This document shows positions 6,078-30,538 of a DNA stretch of 64,000 bases, piece after piece. Source of the stretch: Methanohalophilus mahii DSM 5219 (GTDB lineage Archaea > Halobacteriota > Methanosarcinia > Methanosarcinales > Methanosarcinaceae); contig NC_014002.1 in assembly GCF_000025865.1 (NCBI RefSeq), positions 1,302,001-1,366,000 of the forward strand, in the 5' to 3' direction. Below the pieces are notes generated by a model. That model worked only from the letters and a program-made list of their open reading frames with translations. It searched no databases and was not told where the DNA came from. Made by a program: the position numbers and the translations under genes. The number at the start of each line of letters is the position of its first letter. Position 1 is the first letter of the stretch.

Positions 6078-6332
6078 TACTTCATTTATAGTTTCATTGA
6101 AAAAGATGCAATGGATAAACAGGATTTTATCAGAACTGAGAACTATGGTTTAAGGTTTAAACCAACAGGATAAAAGGTATTAACATTTGATTTTTACATC
6201 ATGTTAAACAGAGTATTGCTATACAGAGGCAAGAACTTCTCATGGTTTTATATCTTGTTGTTGAAACTAAGAGAACTGGCATTCTATATTACTGGCAGGA
6301 TGTGGTCAAATCATATTTCAAATGGCATATGA
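6078..6332 (+). pseudogene. Decayed Cas1 (casposase-like) C-terminal fragment
   Basis: A single plus-strand frame, interrupted only by TAA at 6171, matches the C-terminal half of the intact Cas1 at 20759-21976. It reads YSFIEKDAMDKQDFIRTENY then GLRFKPTG, against FSLVEKGAMDKQDFIRTETY and ALRLKPTG in the intact protein. After the stop comes LYRGKNFSWFYILLLKLREL then AFYITGR, against KYRNKQHTWSAILLLKTREL and AQYLVGK. The N-terminal half and the terminal HTH are missing. The divergence shows it is a relative, not a recent copy, of the intact gene. I see no CRISPR repeats or other cas genes nearby, so it is probably a relic of an older casposon. Confidence 0.75.
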
Positions 6333-19296: not shown

Positions 19297-20523
19297 ATGA
19301 CTCTAAAAAAAGTGAAAGTCTTGTTTGGGATTCTATCTATACTTATAATCACTTTACTATTGCCGATAGGAGCCAATTCAACTGAAAGTCTTGTTATGGC
19401 GGATTTAATCGGATTAAAGGAAGATTATGAAGCAAATGAGAACGATACACTATCAATTCCAATCATTATTCAAAATGTTTCCAATGGTCCAATCCAGACC
19501 ATTAAATGTGATATACAATACAATGAATCAGTTTTGTTCCTTGAATCTGTAGAAGTCGGTGACCTCACAAACGGATGGACTATTCTTACAGGGGATAATG
19601 TTCATTCTATAACTTTGACTACACCGGATAGTAGCATTTCCATAAGAAACGGATCTTCAGGAAATATATTTAATTTACACTTTAATGTGACTGGAAATGC
19701 AGGTGATACTACTGCAATTTATCCAGAAGACATTGATATGGCAAATACTGCAAATTTGCATGGAAGTGTACTATCTACAAACAAAACCGTTGATATCAAT
19801 AACAAAAAAACTACTGTTCCTTCAGAAGATGATTCTTCAGGGAATGGTGGAAGTGGTGGAGGAGGTGGTGGAGCCACAGGTGAAGAGTTTGAAAATATCG
19901 CCTCCAAGCATGCACAGGTAAGTAAGGTGGCTGCAGGTGAAGATGTAAGATATGAGTTCAGTGAAGATGATATTGATTTAATGACCATCCAGTTTACAAG
20001 CCTTTCCAATGAAGGTCAAACCAAAACATCAGTTGAAGTCCTCAAGGATACATCAGCGTTGGTGGATTCTTCTGCACCAGGAAAAGTCTATCAGAACCTG
20101 AATATCTGGGTTGGCAATGTCGCCTTTGATGAAGATGATATGGAGGATCCTGTAGTTGGATTCAGGGTAAGTAAAGAATGGATTTCTGATAATGATGTAG
20201 AACCATCTTCAATTGTCCTTTGCCGATATAATGATGGTGAATGGACCCAGCTTCCTACTGAAGTTATAGGTGAAGATAAGGATTATTTCACATATGAATC
20301 AGAAACCCCCGGATTTTCACCCTTTGCTATAACTGCAATCTCACAAAAAGAGGAATCTTCTGCAAATGCCACCTCGGGATTGAATGAATCATTAGAAGAA
20401 ATAATGAAGGAAAAAACTGATAATAAGACAGAGTCTAAATCAAATGAGACCCCTGGATTTGGTGTTTTGTTAACATGTGGGGTACTGACGATAATAGCTC
20501 TATTGACAAGAAAGAAGAATTAA
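19297..20523 (+). CDS. Cohesin-domain surface protein with PGF-CTERM anchor
   Basis: A 408-residue exported protein: signal peptide (FGILSILIITLLLPIGANS), cohesin domain (~30-160) closely related to that of the preceding protein, a Gly/Ser-rich linker (GNGGSGGGGGG), a PGF-pre-PGF-type domain (~200-350), a charged spacer and a C-terminal PGF-CTERM segment (ETPGFGVLLTCGVLTIIALL then RKKN). The tail is expected to be processed by an archaeosortase and lipid-anchored. The cohesin could bind the dockerin of the upstream gene product, displaying it on the surface. The two cohesin coding stretches share a nearly identical block (about 18485-18540 and 19474-19530), pointing to duplication or gene conversion. 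A decayed copy of this gene's 3' end lies at 30387-30538. Confidence 0.85.
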   Translation: MTLKKVKVLFGILSILIITLLLPIGANSTESLVMADLIGLKEDYEANENDTLSIPIIIQNVSNGPIQTIKCDIQYNESVLFLESVEVGDLTNGWTILTGDNVHSITLTTPDSSISIRNGSSGNIFNLHFNVTGNAGDTTAIYPEDIDMANTANLHGSVLSTNKTVDINNKKTTVPSEDDSSGNGGSGGGGGGATGEEFENIASKHAQVSKVAAGEDVRYEFSEDDIDLMTIQFTSLSNEGQTKTSVEVLKDTSALVDSSAPGKVYQNLNIWVGNVAFDEDDMEDPVVGFRVSKEWISDNDVEPSSIVLCRYNDGEWTQLPTEVIGEDKDYFTYESETPGFSPFAITAISQKEESSANATSGLNESLEEIMKEKTDNKTESKSNETPGFGVLLTCGVLTIIALLTRKKN

Positions 20524-20758
20524 GGAGAGAGATTCTTCATATTTTTTGACTTTTTGTTGATCGAATCACTATGATTAGGAACCTGTGAGTATGATAAGTG
20601 CCTCATCTATATAATCAACTGCTGTTGCAATATTATTGAATAGGTATTTGATAGTATGTCATGTTTGTCAATAAACCAAATGATAATTAATAAATAAACT
20701 GTAAGGAGATAATAAATGAAGTAAGGTATAACTTATTTCATTTTAGACTGTTATTACG
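20524..20758. other. Intergenic region between convergent surface-protein and cas1 genes
   Basis: No gene. A T-rich tract (ATATTTTTTGACTTTTTG) just after 20523 probably ends the surface-protein transcript. Confidence 0.4.
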
Positions 20759-21976
20759 TTACCTAATGGCAGAAACTCTCTGTTTCCATTCTTCCAATCT
20801 CTCCCTAACATGAGCATTCAAAGTAAACGGTTTCCCAGATTTAGCATTCTGTTTCATGTAGTGCAAAGTACCCTTAGAAAAACCCATTTTCTTCCACTCA
20901 ACATAAGAAATATCAAGAATCAACTGTCTGATTTCCATATTGTCCTGTCTTTCAATTTCATAGGCAGGAGACATGAAATCAACCATTTTGCGTTTGCCAA
21001 CAAGGTATTGAGCCAGTTCTCTTGTCTTCAGGAGCAATATAGCACTCCATGTATGTTGTTTATTCCTGTATTTGGCACGTTTATTCAGCCATTGATTAAC
21101 TTCCTCAGTAACCTTCCTGGCCCCTGTAGGCTTAAGCCTTAGCGCATAAGTTTCTGTCCGGATGAAATCCTGTTTATCCATTGCTCCTTTCTCAACCAGT
21201 GAGAATACGGCCAGATCAACAATAAACCTGAATGGTTCCTGCAAATCATAAGCAAGACTGTTTTTGCTCGAATTCATTTCATGCAAAAACCCAACATGTG
21301 GATCTAAGCCAACTGAGTTTATGGCCCTCAGACATTCAGCCTCAAGCAGAGCATATCCATAGTTGAGCATCACGTTGACCTTATCCCCTGCAGCAATCGG
21401 TCTTCTGTATTGGTCCAATCTGGCACAGAAATCATACTCTGCTGGTATGGCTTTTGCAAATTCATTCCAGTATTTCCAGGCAACTCCACCCTCAACTCCC
21501 ATAAGACCCCTTATCGTCCCTGTTTTGTTTAGTTTTTCAACATCATCAGAGAAATCAAACTCAATATCAGGATAGCGTTGTTTCAAAAAATCAAGCACTA
21601 CAATTGATTTATCAAACTTGGCCTCAATGAATTTTTTGGCAAGTTTTACTCTGGTTTGCTCATCTTCAAAAGCATGATACTGAGCAAACTTGGTCTTGAC
21701 ATTGGTACTTTCAGGAGGAAGCATGGTGGTCAACAATTTTCCATCCCAGTTGAGTATTGATATCTGGACATTATGCTTAATCAACCATCGGATTGCTTCA
21801 AGTGTAAGATTGCCACTTTTACCATACACAACAATATTGTCAATATCCATCCTTTTTGGAGAAAATACATATTCCTGAGGTTCTTCTGTGGTTGAGAATC
21901 TACCCTCTTTAATGTGTAGTTTAGCCCCACTTATCCGCATATCAATGCCATGACCATTGAGAAGTAGCAGTTTCAT
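20759..21976 (-). CDS. cas1: Cas1 casposase (integrase) with C-terminal HTH
   Basis: A 405-residue Cas1-family integrase. The N-terminal beta domain (KLLLLNGHG...VVYGKSGNLTLEAIRWLIKH) and alpha-helical domain carry the metal-binding residues: Glu162 in LMGVEGGVAWKYW, His232 in HVGFLHEMNS, and Asp244 with Glu247 in LAYDLQEPFRFIVD. After residue ~345 comes an HTH module (YVEWKKMGFSKGTLHYMK ... LNAHVRERLEEWKQ), the extension that marks casposases rather than CRISPR Cas1. It would insert the excised element into tRNA-Leu with a 14-bp duplication. It lies 16 nt behind the UAG-extended upstream gene, with TGGAGT just before its ATG, so the two are probably one transcript. Confidence 0.93.
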   Translation of the reverse strand: MKLLLLNGHGIDMRISGAKLHIKEGRFSTTEEPQEYVFSPKRMDIDNIVVYGKSGNLTLEAIRWLIKHNVQISILNWDGKLLTTMLPPESTNVKTKFAQYHAFEDEQTRVKLAKKFIEAKFDKSIVVLDFLKQRYPDIEFDFSDDVEKLNKTGTIRGLMGVEGGVAWKYWNEFAKAIPAEYDFCARLDQYRRPIAAGDKVNVMLNYGYALLEAECLRAINSVGLDPHVGFLHEMNSSKNSLAYDLQEPFRFIVDLAVFSLVEKGAMDKQDFIRTETYALRLKPTGARKVTEEVNQWLNKRAKYRNKQHTWSAILLLKTRELAQYLVGKRKMVDFMSPAYEIERQDNMEIRQLILDISYVEWKKMGFSKGTLHYMKQNAKSGKPFTLNAHVRERLEEWKQRVSAIR

Positions 21977-21992
21977 TTAGTGTACTCCATCA

Positions 21993-22859
21993 TTAATTGT
22001 CGATTCTGTACCTGATTTCCTTTATGATTTTTGCAGATTTTGGATTATTGTATTCATTTCGGATTTTTCTTTCTAGTTTATAGAGCTAATCTGTATTCTC
22101 TTCTATCAATATATTTTGACATGAATGCATATAATCGTCTTTTACATTTGACAAATCATCTAGGTTTTCGGCATCCCACTAAAGCTGATCTATTACCACA
22201 CTTTCTTTATAATTTCCTAGGAGATGAAGAATATTTCTTCTTAAAGATTCACTTTTATATTTCTGATGATAATCTTCTAATAATCTTTTCAACCATTCAA
22301 CTAGTCTAGTTTCTCTATCGGGTTCAATTCCATCTGCTAAAATACAATTAGAAACTATATTTACCAAAACACCTATCGAATTCTTATCCAATTCTTCAGT
22401 TTTATTCGATTCGTCAGTGAACGCATCTATTATCGCTTTTAATTCAACCTTATTTATGTTGTATTTGGATTTATACAAAGAAAGTTCACTAATAGCATCC
22501 TTTCTATCCTGAGAATCATTCGATTTTAAGAGTGAAGTAACTTCCTCAATATGCTTTTTTAAAACCGTGGTTTTTTTGAGTAAAAAATATGAAGCATTTT
22601 CAGCTGTTTCGTCTATACCGTATTTCTTGAAGTCTTCAAGCCCCTTGCCTTTTGAAATTTTTTTAGATTCTTTCAATGTAACTAGTGCTCTTTCAATCTT
22701 AGACTTACTGTAACCTTTAGCCTTGAAATGGTTTATCAATCGTGATCTTCTAAAGTACTCTTCCTTTGAGAGAAGATCGATTATTTCTGCTTCAATGTTT
22801 GCTTTCTTTTTAGTAGAGTTTGCTTTTTGGTTTAGAGTATTTTGCTTCATTTTCTGCAT
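21993..22859 (-). CDS. Casposon HTH-like protein with two in-frame UAG codons, upstream of cas1
   Basis: The first 226 codons encode a basic, Lys-rich N-terminus with a winged-helix-like segment (FRRSRLINHFKAKGYSKSKI) and a helical body (DAISELSLYKSKYNINKVEL). UAG follows at 22181-22179. Reading through gives WDAENLDDLSNVKDDYMHSC then QNILIEENTD, a second UAG, and LYKLERKIRNEYNNPKSAKI ending at TAA 21993. The 62 codons after the first UAG carry no TAA or TGA despite ~35% GC and look like real protein; the extended end lies 16 nt from cas1. With UAG as pyrrolysine the product is 288 residues. Without it, the gene ends at 22179 and leaves a 200-nt gap. Probable DNA-binding partner of Cas1; I do not recognise a named family. 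Confidence 0.65.
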
Positions 22860-23093
22860 TAAATGTTAGAATACATCCTCTGATAAACCTAACGGTGCAT
22901 AGTGGTTATTGGTGATTTTATTTGTAGAAAATACAGATGTCGAATAAATTTGGCTGCTCTCAGGCAGAAGTCCTCAGAACAGCCTTAATCAAACTAAAGG
23001 AGCGATAAGTACGCGGTTTTCCAGAAATACGAGAGTTATGAAGACTGGCTTGGTGCTGCAAAACCTCGCAAGTCCGAATATGCGAAAGGGATC

Positions 23094-23645
23094 ATGTGGC
23101 TACACGAGAAGTTCCCTGAATTAACATTGAAGGAATTGCGTGAGCTAAATGTGCAGGATTATAGCGTGGCTGAGACGCCCTGGAATGACCTGGAATCACA
23201 GGACAAGCGTGATCGTATCCTGGCCTTTCAGGTACTCAGAGCTATGCGCCAGGGAGAATCATTGACCTCGACAGCCAAAGAGCTGGGCATCAGTAAACAA
23301 CTTCCTGAAATGCATCTGGGGGAGGCGCTCTTCAAGGAAAACAAAAGATGGAGAGTTGCACCCACTGATTCCATTGAAGCAAAAATGACAGTTTACGAGA
23401 AGGACAGAGGCATTGCCACGATAGTCACTGCGAGTTCAGAAGACCGGTCTATGATTGGGAAATATTTTGCTGCGGTACAGAAAGCTCTGAAATCCGGAGA
23501 TCCTTCCGGTCTTGCACCGTTCGAGGATTTCACCATCATTGATGCTTCGGGTAATTCTCACAGACTGGAAACGGATCTCGAAACGCTATATGAACTCGAG
23601 TTTTCTATTGAAGAGCCTGAATTTTTTGAGATATATGCAAAATAA
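23094..23645 (+). CDS. Casposon HTH-domain protein, start uncertain
   Basis: A 183-residue protein with a central HTH-like stretch (QGESLTSTAKELGISKQLPE) and an acidic C-terminus. The coding frame clearly extends upstream of the first ATG (23094): from 23010 it reads YAVFQKYESYEDWLGAAKPR then KSEYAKGI, and AAAGGAG lies at 22995-23001. But no ATG, GTG or TTG exists between the stop at about 22995 and 23094. Either the true start codon was mutated (the frame-equivalent place is GATAAGTAC) or a rare start is used. It is the first of three closely spaced plus-strand genes with the HNH nuclease and PolB, so it is probably part of the replication or transposition module. Confidence 0.65.
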   Translation: MWLHEKFPELTLKELRELNVQDYSVAETPWNDLESQDKRDRILAFQVLRAMRQGESLTSTAKELGISKQLPEMHLGEALFKENKRWRVAPTDSIEAKMTVYEKDRGIATIVTASSEDRSMIGKYFAAVQKALKSGDPSGLAPFEDFTIIDASGNSHRLETDLETLYELEFSIEEPEFFEIYAK

Positions 23646-23666: not shown

Positions 23667-24032
23667 ATGGATAAAGAAACATATGAACGAATAACTAAGA
23701 AGATGGCGCGTGACGGGAATTTTTCTCTTTGCTGCTATGGCTGTGGAGAAGATGATCCGGCGGTAATCAAGACTTTTGAGTGGCATCATTTGGATGGCAG
23801 AGCAAACTCGGACTATATAATACCACTTTGCCATAACTGTCATGCCAAAATTACTGCCGAGCAGAATAAAATCAAACCCAAAGACAGGTCCAGTAAGGCA
23901 ACATTGCTAAAAAGAAAAGGCATGCAACTAATTTCACAGGGGTCTTTCTTAAAAGTGATGGGTGGAAAACAGGTAGATCTTGGTCATTGGTTAATTGAAT
24001 ACGATACACTGCATGGAGGAGGAAATGACTAA
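23667..24032 (+). CDS. HNH endonuclease
   Basis: A 121-residue HNH nuclease, typical of casposons. Zinc-binding cysteine pairs CYGC (23/26) and CHNC (55/58) flank the catalytic HH of FEWHHLDGRANSDYIIPLCH. The start is 21 nt after the upstream HTH gene, with AGGGG nearby. The last 8 nt overlap the polB start, and its own C-terminal codons (HGGGND) supply the GGAGGAGG ribosome site for PolB, so the two are coupled. The role in casposon biology (excision, replication or target nicking) is not known. Confidence 0.88.
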   Translation: MDKETYERITKKMARDGNFSLCCYGCGEDDPAVIKTFEWHHLDGRANSDYIIPLCHNCHAKITAEQNKIKPKDRSSKATLLKRKGMQLISQGSFLKVMGGKQVDLGHWLIEYDTLHGGGND

Positions 24033-26697
24033 AGTCGCATTGAGAGGGTTTACCTGGAAGTCAAATGAGTCTTCCAAAACCTTTCCTTATAGACTAGGAC
24101 CTCCTTTGATACATTCCCGAGTACTTGTTTTTGATACTGAAACGACTATCGATCAGTACCAGAACCTGAAGATAGGGTATTTCCGGATATACCAGCGTGG
24201 ATGTATTCAGCATGATGGTCTATTTTACAACCCTGCAATGCTTTCTGAAAGGGAATGTAAGCAAGTTTAGGAGTACGTATCGAAGCACTCCATTGAAGTA
24301 TATAGTCTCAAGGAATTCGTGGATAAAGTCTTCTACAGAGAAATATATGTGCTCAAGACACTCTGTGTCGGATTCAATCTGGGGTTTGACCTGAGCAGGT
24401 TGGCAACCTATTCAGGAAATTCCAGGAATCAGAACAATGGTGGATTCACACTTACATTATCAAAGAAACGTGACGACCCCACAATTATAGTGCGCAGGCT
24501 TAATGATTCCAATAATTTTAAGTTGGGTAGTACAAAAAATAATCAGGGGAAGGAACGTTTTGATGGACATTTTTTAGATGTACAGTGTTTGGGACAGGTA
24601 CTCCTCGAATCAAAACATTTGTCTCTGGCGAGGGCTGGAGAGATGCTCAATACAGAGGTACGGAAAAAAGAAGGTATAGAGCATGGGACTGTTACCCAGG
24701 ACTACATTGATTATCTGATCACCGATGTACGTGTCACCTATCAGGTGTATGAGAAATTAATGAAAGAATTGAGGGAGTACCAGATTACCATTCCCCCCAC
24801 CCGGATCTATAGTGCAGCATCAATTGGTAAACATGCTCTGCAACAGTTAGGAATTGAGCCATTCAGGAAACATAAATCCAATTTCCCGGCCGAGATCATA
24901 GGCAATATAATGACCTCATATTTTGGTGGCAGGTGTGAATGCAAGATCAGGAAAACACCAACCAAGGTTACAGTCCTCGATTTTACAAGTATGTACCCAA
25001 CTGTGACCATGGAGATGGGTTTGTGGGATTTCATAATAGCCGACCGTCTTGAGCATGAAGATGTAACTGAAGAAATTAAAACACTATTCGGGAAACTGAG
25101 TCTGACTTACCTGCAAAACACGGATAACTGGAAGGATTTTGTGGTCATGGTAAAGATTCGGCCTGAGGAAGACGTGTTACCAGTCAGGATGAATTATAAA
25201 GGAGATTACGGGATTTTCAATGTGGGTATCAACCATCTATCGATTGAGTCCGGGATGTGGTTTGCCCTGCCTGATGTGATCAGTTCATATCTACTGACCG
25301 GCAAAATACCTGAGATTATTCAGGCAGTGCGGTTCATTCCAAAAGGTACGCAGGATGAATTGAGGAAATCAAAGATACTTGGTATGACTATCGATCCTGC
25401 AAAAGATAACCTAGTACAATTACTGGTTGAAGAGAGGCAGAAAATAAAGGTAGAGTTAGCAGGAAGTGAGATGGATGATCCTGACTATATCCGTCTGAAA
25501 AGCAGGGCACAGGCCATCAAGATCCTTGTGAATTCATTGAGTTATGGGATATTCATTGAATTAAACCCGGAGGAATGGAATAGTTATTTTAGGGTCTACG
25601 GTCTTGACAATTTCAGTACCGAGAAAAACAGGTATGAGAAACCGGGCAAGTATTTCCATCCTTTACTTGGGTCCATGATTACAGCAGGGTCCAGACTTTT
25701 CCTGGCAATGGCCGAAACCAAACTCAAAGAACTTGGTGGTACACACGCCTATATGGATACGGATTCTATCTTTGTTCCGCCTGAATATGCTCAGGAGATT
25801 ATAGACTATTTCCAGCCATTGAATCCTTATGCTCTGGATATTCCATTATTGAAACCTGAAAAAGAGGATATGTGGTTCTATGGGATTTCTTCCAAGAGAT
25901 ATGCCCTCTACAATTATGACAATGGAAATATCAAGTTCATGGAGGGTGAAAGGTCCTACAAATTGCACGGTCTCGGGCATCTGAGTAATCCATTCCCGAA
26001 TTCGGTTGTGGATTGGCACAGCGAGATCTGGCTGGATATCCTCAAGTTGCATTACAACCAGATTTCAGTGGAGGATATTGAAGCTAAATACGGAAACCTG
26101 TATGCTATCTCCAAACTAACGGTGAGTACTTCGAATATACTGAAGCGTTTCAAAAATCTTAATGAGGAGAAACCGTGGGAAAAACAGATCAAACCATTCA
26201 ATTTTTTCACTGTTGGATTCCACATGCAGCAGGATAAAGGCAAACCTGTTAAACCATTATCTCCGTTCTCAATGGATTCACAGAAGGTAGTTCATGAACC
26301 CTTCATAGATTATGAAACCGGCGAGGAAAAGCAGGGGTTGGAGTATTTCAAGCCACTGAGCAAAATCATTCTGCAGTACATCGAGCATCCGGAAAGTAAA
26401 CTGGATGGTAATGAGGGGGTTCTGGAAAGGAAACACGTTCATTCAGACGGAGTTTTATGTATCGGTAAGGAAGCGAACAATATCGTTGATCAGCCATTGA
26501 ACGTGGAACCAGCACAGATATTTCTTGAAACGGCTGCTGTAGAGGAGGAAATTTTATCGATTCCTCAGACACAGGCTGAAAGCTGTGGAGTGGATCGAGG
26601 GAATTTCAAACGCATAAAGGATCGAATAAAGAAGGGGAAACTGAACCTGAATACGCCTGCAGTAAAACGACTCCTGGCCAGACGTGTTCTACGTTAA
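24025..26697 (+). CDS. polB: Casposon family B DNA polymerase with an in-frame UAG at codon 82
   Basis: An 890-residue DNA polymerase if UAG at 24268-24270 is read through. Exonuclease motifs: ExoI VFDTETT (D37, E39), ExoII FNLGFD (N118, D122), ExoIII YLITDVRVTY (D234). Polymerase motifs: A LDFTSMYPT (D319), B KILVNSLSYG (~499-508), C YMDTDS (D578, D580). All catalytic residues are present. The UAG lies between ExoI and ExoII, at ...RECKQV-UAG-EYVSKHSIEV..., in one continuous frame. Stopping there, or restarting at GTG 24319, would give a polymerase without ExoI. The start ATG 24025 has the ribosome site GGAGGAGG. It is expected to copy the casposon. Pyrrolysine at residue 82 is an inference; a nonsense mutation is the alternative. 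Confidence 0.8.
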
Positions 26698-27435: not shown

Positions 27436-28005
27436 AGTACTGAATGGTAAATACAACATGTGTGTACAAACTAAGATAACATTTGGTAAAAACAGATATG
27501 ATGCAAAGATTCAAAGACATCATAACTGTTTTTTTTTGTTCCATTTAGACCTCGAAAATATTCATCTGGCTATCTGGTTTAGCAAAAGTATTGAAATTTG
27601 TATATTGAGCATCATTTGAAAAAGAGCCGTCTTTGGACAAAGCAAGTTCTATTCTTTAAATAAGTGTCTGCTGGAGTAAGGTTTTGTTATCAAGCCAGCA
27701 GGTTTTAATTTGTAAGCTCGTCTGAAAGTCTCTTTATCTGAAATACCTGTAATGAAAATAATAGGAATTGAACTATTTTGCTTTATTCAAATGAGTTCGC
27801 AGGATAGTGGGATTTAGATGGTACCCGTCCTTGTTACTACCACACGTATGATGCGGACGGCGCACCGATGCTCGCAGGCTCAAATCCTTTCTAGGCTTGA
27901 GATTTTCAAATCCAATACTCATTTTTGAGTACGCTCAAGTAATACTCATACTGTTGTCGAAATACTTTCCAGGAATGGGTTGAGTGGGAGAAAATCGGGC
28001 ATGTA
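27436..28005. other. Intergenic region in the casposon with a GC-rich island
   Basis: No intact gene. At about 27815-27893 a distinctly GC-rich island sits in AT-rich DNA; its plus frame reads GTRPCYYHTYDADGAPMLAG then SNPF and a stop, perhaps the end of a lost gene. The flanks are AT-rich without clear features. Confidence 0.35.
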
Positions 28006-30264
28006 TTAAAAATTTTGATTATCTTTTTTATCGTAGTTAGCTAGATAGAAATCAATAGTCTGTTTGTTAGCCGTGTACAACTTATCATTTTCATTTTTTA
28101 TTTTTATCAATCTAGATATTATAGATTCTAGTTCCACGAAATCATTCAGATTTTGGTAATTTAATTTTTTAATTCTTTTGGATGTGTAATCTCCAAACGT
28201 ATAACTCATTGATTCAGTAATAAATTTGCTTAAGAACAAAACTAACTTTCCGTCATCCGCTAAGATATCATCAATAAATTGTTCCCATCTTTTCTCTTTG
28301 TCCCAGTCACGCCACCTATAAATTATATAGATAAATTCGTCAGAATCCAACAATTTATTTTTGCAACCAATAATTTTTTCCAAACACAGTTTCTGCAATT
28401 CCTCAACTTTGTCAGGCGCAATAAAGGTGTCTTTTGGGTCATCATCCCTATCTTCGTTAGGAGTTTGGAGTGATACTTCTTGAACGGGTCCATACAGCCC
28501 TTTAGACAGTGGAATAGTATTTTTTAGAATTTTATAAATTTCCATAGATTCTCCATTGCGTTCGAATATCTGATGGAGGATTCTCATCATGTCCATATCA
28601 GCTCCATAATCAAACATGCCAGCCTTTTCTTTTGGTAAGTCATCAGAGATGTTGAATAGTGCTAGAACAATATTTTGAACTTTCTCTTGTGGAATGTACT
28701 TTTCCTCAGATGTATAATCCTGCATTTTTTGTAATACTTTTCGTATTTTATTTTTCTCTATATATTCTCGAAGAATTGATTCAAATGCTTCAACTGAATT
28801 TGTTTTGGTCAAAATGTTTTCCATTTCATATTGGCTTATTTCTTCCTCGCCTCCACCAGGAATTAGTGAAAAATAGCTATCAAAATTAGATGTAGCACAC
28901 ACTCTAAGGTCTCTACTCCAAGAGGCTTGAAAATCAGAACTATGATTTGTATTAATCTGTGGGAATAATGTTTTTACAAGTTGTATAGTATGTTCTCTCA
29001 CATCTTTTGCTAAATCATAGTCCTGATTTTCGATTTTAGCAATCCTATCATTTATGTTAGAAGAGTTAAACATATCTGTTGAAGTGAAAAGAGAGTTTTG
29101 ACTTTTCATGAAGTTATAAAAATCAGGATCAAATACTCTTATAGCTTCTATTGCAGTGAAATCTATGGGATTTACTTCCATTATTTCATCATTGTACATT
29201 TGTGATATGTTAAATTTTAAACTACTCATAAACCTTTTAACATCTCTTATATTTTTAAAATAATATTTAAATCCAGAGTTGTAAACATTGGCCCAATATG
29301 AATCACCTTGATTATAGAATCTCTGTGCAGATTCAGGTAATGAACCAAGTACTTGATTTAATTCTTCAAAGAAATACTTTGAAGTAGTATTAGGCTTTGC
29401 AAAAGGAATATCGAAATCAACCTGTACTATTTTGTTTAAGTAGTCTTTACCCGATACTCCTGCTTGCACCTCTAAATTTTTTTCAATAATTTTTCGATCA
29501 AATGCTAAAAGATAAATAATATTTGGAAAATCTGCATTAATTCGAATTAATCTAAATATTTGCTTTATTTCAGATTGATTTAATCGATCAATATCATCAA
29601 TTACAATAATTAATTTTTTTTGTCTTTTTAGCAACTCGTTTTTGATTTCCGTTTTTACTTCTAATATTGACTTTTTATTATATGCATTTTTTTTATTTAA
29701 AATATCAGCTAATTTTGCTAAATAATTTTTAAATATTCCAGCAACTACAAGTACAGCACTTAAACCAAGTACTGAATATTTCACATACATATCAGCAATA
29801 TTAATCCAACCAGTTATTTCATTTGTAGAAATACCTACTAAACTTATACCTATTATTAGACTAAAAGCATATCCCGAAACTGTTTTTTCATCTGGTACCA
29901 GACTAAGCAAACTTGAATAATACGTGAGTTTCTCAGCAATCTTTTTGTCATTGCTTTCCCCTCTTATTTTAATTTCTTTTGCAACTTCATTGAAAAAATG
30001 CTCACTCAAGTTCTTTTGCTCTGAAAAATTCCAAGGATTAAATTCAATTACAGTAGGTATATCCTTTAAATTTTTATTCTTAATGTGCCTTAAAGCAAGT
30101 TTAATTGCAGAGGACTTACCAGACCCCCATTCTCCATGGACCGCAACAATAAGACTTTCTTTTTCCTTCCAACTTAAAAGAGATTCAGCTAAATGTTGTG
30201 AAAATCCTTTTCGGTTCAAAAAGTCCTCTTTTTCTGTTTCTATTGGTTTGTCAGGAATAAACAT
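28006..30264 (-). CDS. KAP-family P-loop NTPase (putative defence gene)
   Basis: A 752-residue KAP NTPase. Walker A is AVHGEWGSGKSSAIKLAL (~45-60). FNPWNFSEQKNLSEHFFNEV is the KAP signature. Two hydrophobic helices are inserted at ~135-180 (AFSLIIGISLVGIS; YSVLGLSAVLVVAGIF), so it is membrane-associated. Walker B is KLIIVIDDIDRLNQSEIKQI, followed by a sensor-like YLLAFDRKII. KAP proteins include the phage-exclusion protein PifA and many defence-island genes; that role here is inferred. I start at ATG 30264 (MFIPDKPIE); a GTG lies at 30279. The gene is very AT-rich, unlike the host genes, which suits recently acquired cargo. The C-terminal ~350 residues have no recognisable domain. Confidence 0.8.
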   Translation of the reverse strand: MFIPDKPIETEKEDFLNRKGFSQHLAESLLSWKEKESLIVAVHGEWGSGKSSAIKLALRHIKNKNLKDIPTVIEFNPWNFSEQKNLSEHFFNEVAKEIKIRGESNDKKIAEKLTYYSSLLSLVPDEKTVSGYAFSLIIGISLVGISTNEITGWINIADMYVKYSVLGLSAVLVVAGIFKNYLAKLADILNKKNAYNKKSILEVKTEIKNELLKRQKKLIIVIDDIDRLNQSEIKQIFRLIRINADFPNIIYLLAFDRKIIEKNLEVQAGVSGKDYLNKIVQVDFDIPFAKPNTTSKYFFEELNQVLGSLPESAQRFYNQGDSYWANVYNSGFKYYFKNIRDVKRFMSSLKFNISQMYNDEIMEVNPIDFTAIEAIRVFDPDFYNFMKSQNSLFTSTDMFNSSNINDRIAKIENQDYDLAKDVREHTIQLVKTLFPQINTNHSSDFQASWSRDLRVCATSNFDSYFSLIPGGGEEEISQYEMENILTKTNSVEAFESILREYIEKNKIRKVLQKMQDYTSEEKYIPQEKVQNIVLALFNISDDLPKEKAGMFDYGADMDMMRILHQIFERNGESMEIYKILKNTIPLSKGLYGPVQEVSLQTPNEDRDDDPKDTFIAPDKVEELQKLCLEKIIGCKNKLLDSDEFIYIIYRWRDWDKEKRWEQFIDDILADDGKLVLFLSKFITESMSYTFGDYTSKRIKKLNYQNLNDFVELESIISRLIKIKNENDKLYTANKQTIDFYLANYDKKDNQNF

Positions 30265-30386
30265 GGGTCCGACTCTCACTATTATATCGGAAAATCACAT
30301 TTCAAATATATTCTACAATACGCATGTTTATCTTTTATATTAAACGTATGCATTTTTATGTTTCTTTAGAAACCCTTTAATTTAGT

Positions 30387-30538
30387 AATGAAGGAAAAAA
30401 AACGATAATAATAAAGATTCTAAATCAAATGAAACGTCTGGATTTGGATCTTTGTTAACATCTGAGGTACTGATGATAGCAACTCTATTAACAAGAAGGA
30501 ATGAATGAGAAGATGAATCCTTCATTATTTGGTTTTTT
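30387..30538 (+). pseudogene. Decayed 3' fragment of the PGF-CTERM surface gene
   Basis: This stretch matches 20403-20560, the last ~120 coding bases plus the 3' flank of the cohesin/PGF-CTERM gene. The relic reads SKSNETSGFGSLLTSEVLMI then ATLLTRRNE against SKSNETPGFGVLLTCGVLTI then IALLTRKKN. Upstream of this the frame is broken by indels and tandem TAA. It shows that a second copy of the surface gene once lay near the right end of the element. Confidence 0.75.

Follow-up and report, generated by a model that had tools for sequence, protein, structure and literature searches.

Family 2 casposons have in their core an HTH protein that carries HEAT repeats at its C-terminus (Krupovic et al. 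2014, PMC4046053). The same survey describes a KAP ATPase in MetMah-C1, the element of Methanohalophilus mahii, and calls MetBur-C3 of Methanococcoides burtonii inactivated on account of amber mutations in two genes; its text leaves UAG codons in MetMah-C1 unmentioned and does not contain the word pyrrolysine (PMC4046053). Mobile-element genes in which UAG is presumed to encode pyrrolysine are already known in the form of transposases, including that of M. mazei (PMC2933860, PMC3639795). M. mahii is itself listed as a pyrrolysine organism (PMC3639795). In Methanosarcina, decoding and termination are in competition at UAG (PMC2933860, PMC8211752), and an amber codon introduced into M. acetivorans led mostly to termination (PMC2933860).

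We examined a casposon located in a 64,000-nucleotide window of M. mahii DSM 5219, to which all coordinates refer unless a locus is named. The element appears to be MetMah-C1, because its gene order and ATPase cargo fit the published account (PMC4046053), and the gene directly upstream of cas1 appears to encode the conserved core HTH protein with a C-terminal HEAT domain (HTH-HEAT) of the family 2 casposons. The order cas1, HTH-HEAT, divergent HTH, HNH and PolB is that of the relatives' loci, and the layout of a winged HTH followed by helical repeats and the adjacency to cas1 are also shared with the family. What distinguishes the M. mahii element from the family 2 description is the presence of two UAG codons in its HTH-HEAT gene and of one in its PolB gene.

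The cas1 gene (20759..21976, minus strand; PF01867, 229 bits) encodes a casposase of 405 aa without an in-frame UAG that shares 68-76% identity with the family's other casposases, in alignments spanning at least 397 residues. On the plus strand lie the second conserved HTH gene (22998..23645), the HNH nuclease gene (23667..24032), recognized by conserved order and homology in relatives, and the PolB gene (24025..26697), recognized by exonuclease and polymerase motifs and by its homologues. Compared with its homologues, the second HTH gene has ATA where they start with ATG and is about one base short near codon 8; the next in-frame ATG is at 23094, within the affected stretch 22998-23110 (plus strand). 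Translation may begin at this ATG; alternatively, there may be damage to the gene or an error in the sequence. A large cargo ATPase gene with a P-loop (28006..30279, minus strand) is taken to be that of the KAP-family ATPase of MetMah-C1, an assignment made from PMC4046053 and the P-loop and not from a family search.

Comparison of chosen end regions of the casposon detected no inverted repeats above the shuffled background. The element is flanked by direct repeats of 135 nt (20411-20545 and 30396-30530) that are 78% identical and both look like the terminal part of a gene for a PGF-CTERM surface protein. At 27978-28010 (plus strand) a short sequence similar to a portion of the cas1 C-terminus (VEWEKIG) stands in the opposite orientation to cas1, and C-terminal fragments of cas1 are also found near several relatives' casposons. 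Elsewhere in the window, 6084-6299 (plus strand) holds a decayed cas1 fragment, 54% identical to the casposase over 72 residues and with one in-frame stop, which by its sequence is a remnant of another casposon.

The HTH-HEAT gene (21993..22859, minus strand) runs from an ATG at 22859 to a TAA at 21993-21995 and comprises 288 codons before this stop. Its interior is devoid of UAA and UGA, the only in-frame stops being UAG at codon 227 (22179..22181) and codon 258 (22086..22088), both on the minus strand. Translation with UAG as a residue thus agrees with the preliminary description of this DNA, which had reported a gene upstream of cas1 with two UAG codons and a full frame of 288 residues. That account also placed the end of the frame 16 nt before the cas1 ATG, which is correct (ATG at 21976), and foresaw a gap of about 200 nt if the first UAG terminates, for which we compute 202 nt. 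The run of 62 codons free of TAA and TGA that it noted is real; this count includes the UAG itself, and the tail past UAG227 has 61 codons (21996..22178, minus strand). The chance of 61 codons without TAA or TGA at 30% GC is about 0.008 under a first-order Markov model and about 0.012 under base shuffling. The open tail is therefore modest, suggestive evidence when judged by composition alone, and it is the homology evidence that is decisive.

Homologues of the HTH-HEAT protein were found in 27 genomes besides the source in a search of 185 genomes of Methanosarcinales. Rather than ending by residue 226, most of these align through residue ~283-285, beside cas1, and have sense codons at both UAG sites. 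In an alignment of thirty loci the UAG227 column holds Lys, Ile or Met in the other loci and the UAG258 column Glu in most of them; the UAG positions themselves are not conserved among relatives, and stops near residue 226 occur in none of the relatives. Past the first UAG, D229, Y243, I252, E253, L259 and L266 are invariant or nearly so (D229, Y243 and L259 strictly so among the aligned loci), and all six are present in the M. mahii protein. From end to end this protein is more divergent than its relatives, and with a same-genus homologue only ~31% identical the M. mahii copy has no close relative. Divergence downstream of the UAG is nevertheless not random-like, since conserved columns are kept at equal rates before and after UAG227 (0.62 versus 0.61), the ratio of 0.98 lying inside the range of intact relatives.

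The position of the gene relative to cas1 gives a similar picture. Nearly all HTH-HEAT homologues have cas1 directly downstream, and in 19 of the 27 that could be measured the stop codon and the cas1 ATG overlap, by 4 nt in 11 loci and by 1 nt in 8. Apart from one rearranged locus, the other measurable homologues have their stop 2 to 45 nt from cas1. The gap of 202 nt left by a stop at UAG227 is unlike any of these. The earlier proposal that readthrough links the gene to cas1 stands in the sense of translational adjacency within an operon and does not extend to a fusion protein, as the TAA precedes the cas1 ATG. Full-length homologues with the 4-nt overlap also occur in Methanoculleus and Methanogenium, whose genomes contain no PylS above the cut-off. 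A wider genome collection was searched with Cas1 as the query, and no relatives were found in viral contigs.

An AlphaFold2 model of the HTH-HEAT protein has a mean pLDDT of 83, and its best-modelled part is the tail region, with residues 210-280 all helical at ~90-97. UAG227 falls within the predicted helix 221-232, so that a stop at this codon would remove half of this helix together with the last four, which belong to the HEAT-like domain. Profile matches to HEAT_2 were obtained for 6 of the 27 homologues and are weak (best E 0.0015), and a fold search against the PDB returned weak helical-repeat matches, adaptins and alphaReps among them, at E 0.075 or worse. The product would accordingly be described as a winged-HTH protein whose C-terminal helical domain is HEAT-like, a label that is weak by both sequence and fold.

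The PolB gene presents the same pattern. Its single in-frame UAG is codon 82 counted from the ATG at 24025 (24268..24270, plus strand); exonuclease motif I (FDTET) precedes this codon and the other exonuclease and polymerase motifs follow it. Homologues align from residue 1 to ~885, across UAG82, and the 808 codons after the UAG are free of UAA, UGA and frameshifts. UAG is absent from most other intact casposons, and truly decayed copies elsewhere carry UGA and UAA.

The host possesses a complete system for pyrrolysine, the 22nd amino acid. The M. mahii genome, a single contig of 2,012,424 bases, encodes PylS (368 bits; cut-off 178), and ARAGORN placed a tRNA-Pyl with a CUA anticodon beside pylS; a tRNA-Pyl pattern modelled on that of M. 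mazei gave no match. Frames for PylB, PylC and PylD, named by sequence recognition and not by family search, adjoin pylS. Among the methylamine methyltransferases, MttB and two copies of MtmB each contain a single internal TAG, and two reading frames recognized by sequence as MtbB have an internal TAG. In a 464-kb sample of the genome only 12 of the 417 ORFs with at least 100 aa are closed by TAG, and these 12 include MtbB, MttB and the HTH-HEAT gene, whose TAGs are internal. A transporter-like gene (L049:11155-12297, minus strand) has UAG at codon 289 followed by 91 codons that read like a membrane protein, and is a chromosomal pyrrolysine candidate. The pylB gene (L039:2266-3447, minus strand) has UAG as its stop, and an unrelated extension of 39 codons separates this UAG from the one that follows in frame as the next stop. 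UAG thus still terminates, or is read through, at a gene of pyrrolysine synthesis, and it is not exclusively a sense codon in M. mahii. Archaea that read all of their UAG codons as pyrrolysine were reportedly described in 2025. A pylB gene ending in UAG has been reported for other species (PMC2933860).

A second case was found in a genome of 2,575,032 bases (G091) that encodes PylS at 440 bits and has three casposons side by side, the arrangement published for MetBur-C1 to C3 of M. burtonii; we infer that the third (L083, G091:C1:586874-592893) is MetBur-C3. It has one UAG each in HTH-HEAT, HNH and PolB, at positions differing from those of the M. mahii element, and no internal UAA or UGA. Its PolB is under purifying selection, like that of its UAG-free neighbour: dN/dS against copy 1 is 0.157, with private changes numbering 39 nonsynonymous and 66 synonymous in the third copy and 33 and 69 in UAG-free copy 1. 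For HTH-HEAT and HNH of the third copy the substitution counts are too low to judge, and the UAG in HNH replaces a conserved Trp. As PolB has remained under purifying selection despite its UAG, the published verdict of inactivation for MetBur-C3 is probably wrong, and this sister element may be alive although it was declared dead.

We consider it highly probable that the gene upstream of cas1 is an intact family 2 casposon core gene whose UAG codons are decoded as pyrrolysine to give the full 288-residue protein. This case is built on homology, the host code and the selection test in G091. Homology to full-length proteins elsewhere covers the entire frame, and since the host reads UAG as pyrrolysine the 288-residue protein is probably made. 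The preliminary description had spoken of UAG readthrough; the homologous, conserved tail bears this out, while in a host with a pyrrolysine system and almost no UAG stops the event is most likely sense-codon decoding and not a regulated readthrough or switch. That the reading frame simply terminates at codon 227, to give a 226-residue product and an untranslated tail, is what the standard code would predict, and this we regard as very improbable given the conservation of the tail, the adjacency to cas1, the host code and the UAG in PolB. A design in which 226- and 288-residue forms are both made, with a switch tied to pyrrolysine supply, would draw on the competition between decoding and termination in Methanosarcina (PMC2933860, PMC8211752) and on the UAG at the end of M. 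mahii pylB. It is quite unlikely, as the UAG position is unconserved, relatives lack a stop near residue 226 and the first UAG halves a predicted helix; nor was any known RNA element found near the UAGs, an Rfam search giving one weak match far below its cut-off.

Decay of the casposon, in which the UAGs are nonsense lesions, the tail is a remnant and any readthrough is incidental, is also unlikely, even though it has several observations in its favour. The start codon and one base are missing from the adjacent HTH gene, so that the M. mahii element may be partly worn; nearly all intact casposons other than this one lack the UAGs; and the HTH-HEAT protein is more divergent than others. Against this, all three in-frame stops of the element are the codon that is sense in its host. 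UAG would make up 38-45% of the one-step nonsense mutations here, so that three out of three is not very unlikely by chance (p ~0.06-0.09); with the G091 element included, six out of six gives p ~0.003-0.008, a result that is weaker if the first UAG of each element is discounted. Decay would also have to spare both the tail and 808 PolB codons from UAA, UGA and frameshifts, when truly decayed copies elsewhere have acquired UGA and UAA, and it sits poorly with purifying selection on the parallel UAG-bearing element of G091.

Under decoding as pyrrolysine, tRNA-Pyl(CUA) would read UAG227 and UAG258 as well as UAG82 of PolB, and ribosomes ending at the UAA beside cas1 may help to translate cas1 by coupling. 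Following published proposals, the HTH domain would bind DNA, either the element end or the target, and the HEAT-like domain would hold Cas1 or other partners; others have proposed that the protein helps Cas1 to find its site. The UAGs presumably arose as small changes that could be tolerated because UAG is a sense codon in M. mahii. As they are unconserved among relatives, a particular chemical function of pyrrolysine at these sites is improbable, and their absence from most other intact casposons marks them as private and probably neutral. This sets the casposon apart from MtmB, MtbB and MttB, whose UAGs are decoded by the same host machinery: the pyrrolysine of the methyltransferases is conserved and catalytic, whereas that of the casposon is unconserved and probably incidental. 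The pyrrolysine-type transposases are likewise mobile-element genes with UAG presumed to be pyrrolysine, but they are unrelated to the casposon and their UAG is shared by the family, while casposon UAGs are private to single elements. Another close parallel is MetBur-C3, which also resides in a pyrrolysine-using methanogen and has UAGs in core genes, none of them interrupted by UAA or UGA.

This explanation is the ordinary biology of pyrrolysine-using methanogens, overlooked for the casposon in the literature we examined. Its main value is to correct the reading of UAG-bearing casposons, which the standard code misreads as dead or truncated: core genes of elements that are the presumed ancestors of CRISPR adaptation would here be written with UAG as sense. 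A testable question follows, namely whether transposon activity is tied to the host's pyrrolysine supply and whether the code limits the hosts that can be entered. It is conceivable, though we hold it doubtful, that casposons which acquire UAG codons become confined to hosts that use pyrrolysine and show activity only as long as it is produced. If true, the polymerase and the HTH-HEAT partner, and hence replication and integration, would depend on pylT and methylamine metabolism, and the genetic code would act both as a host-range barrier and as an on/off control of the transposon.
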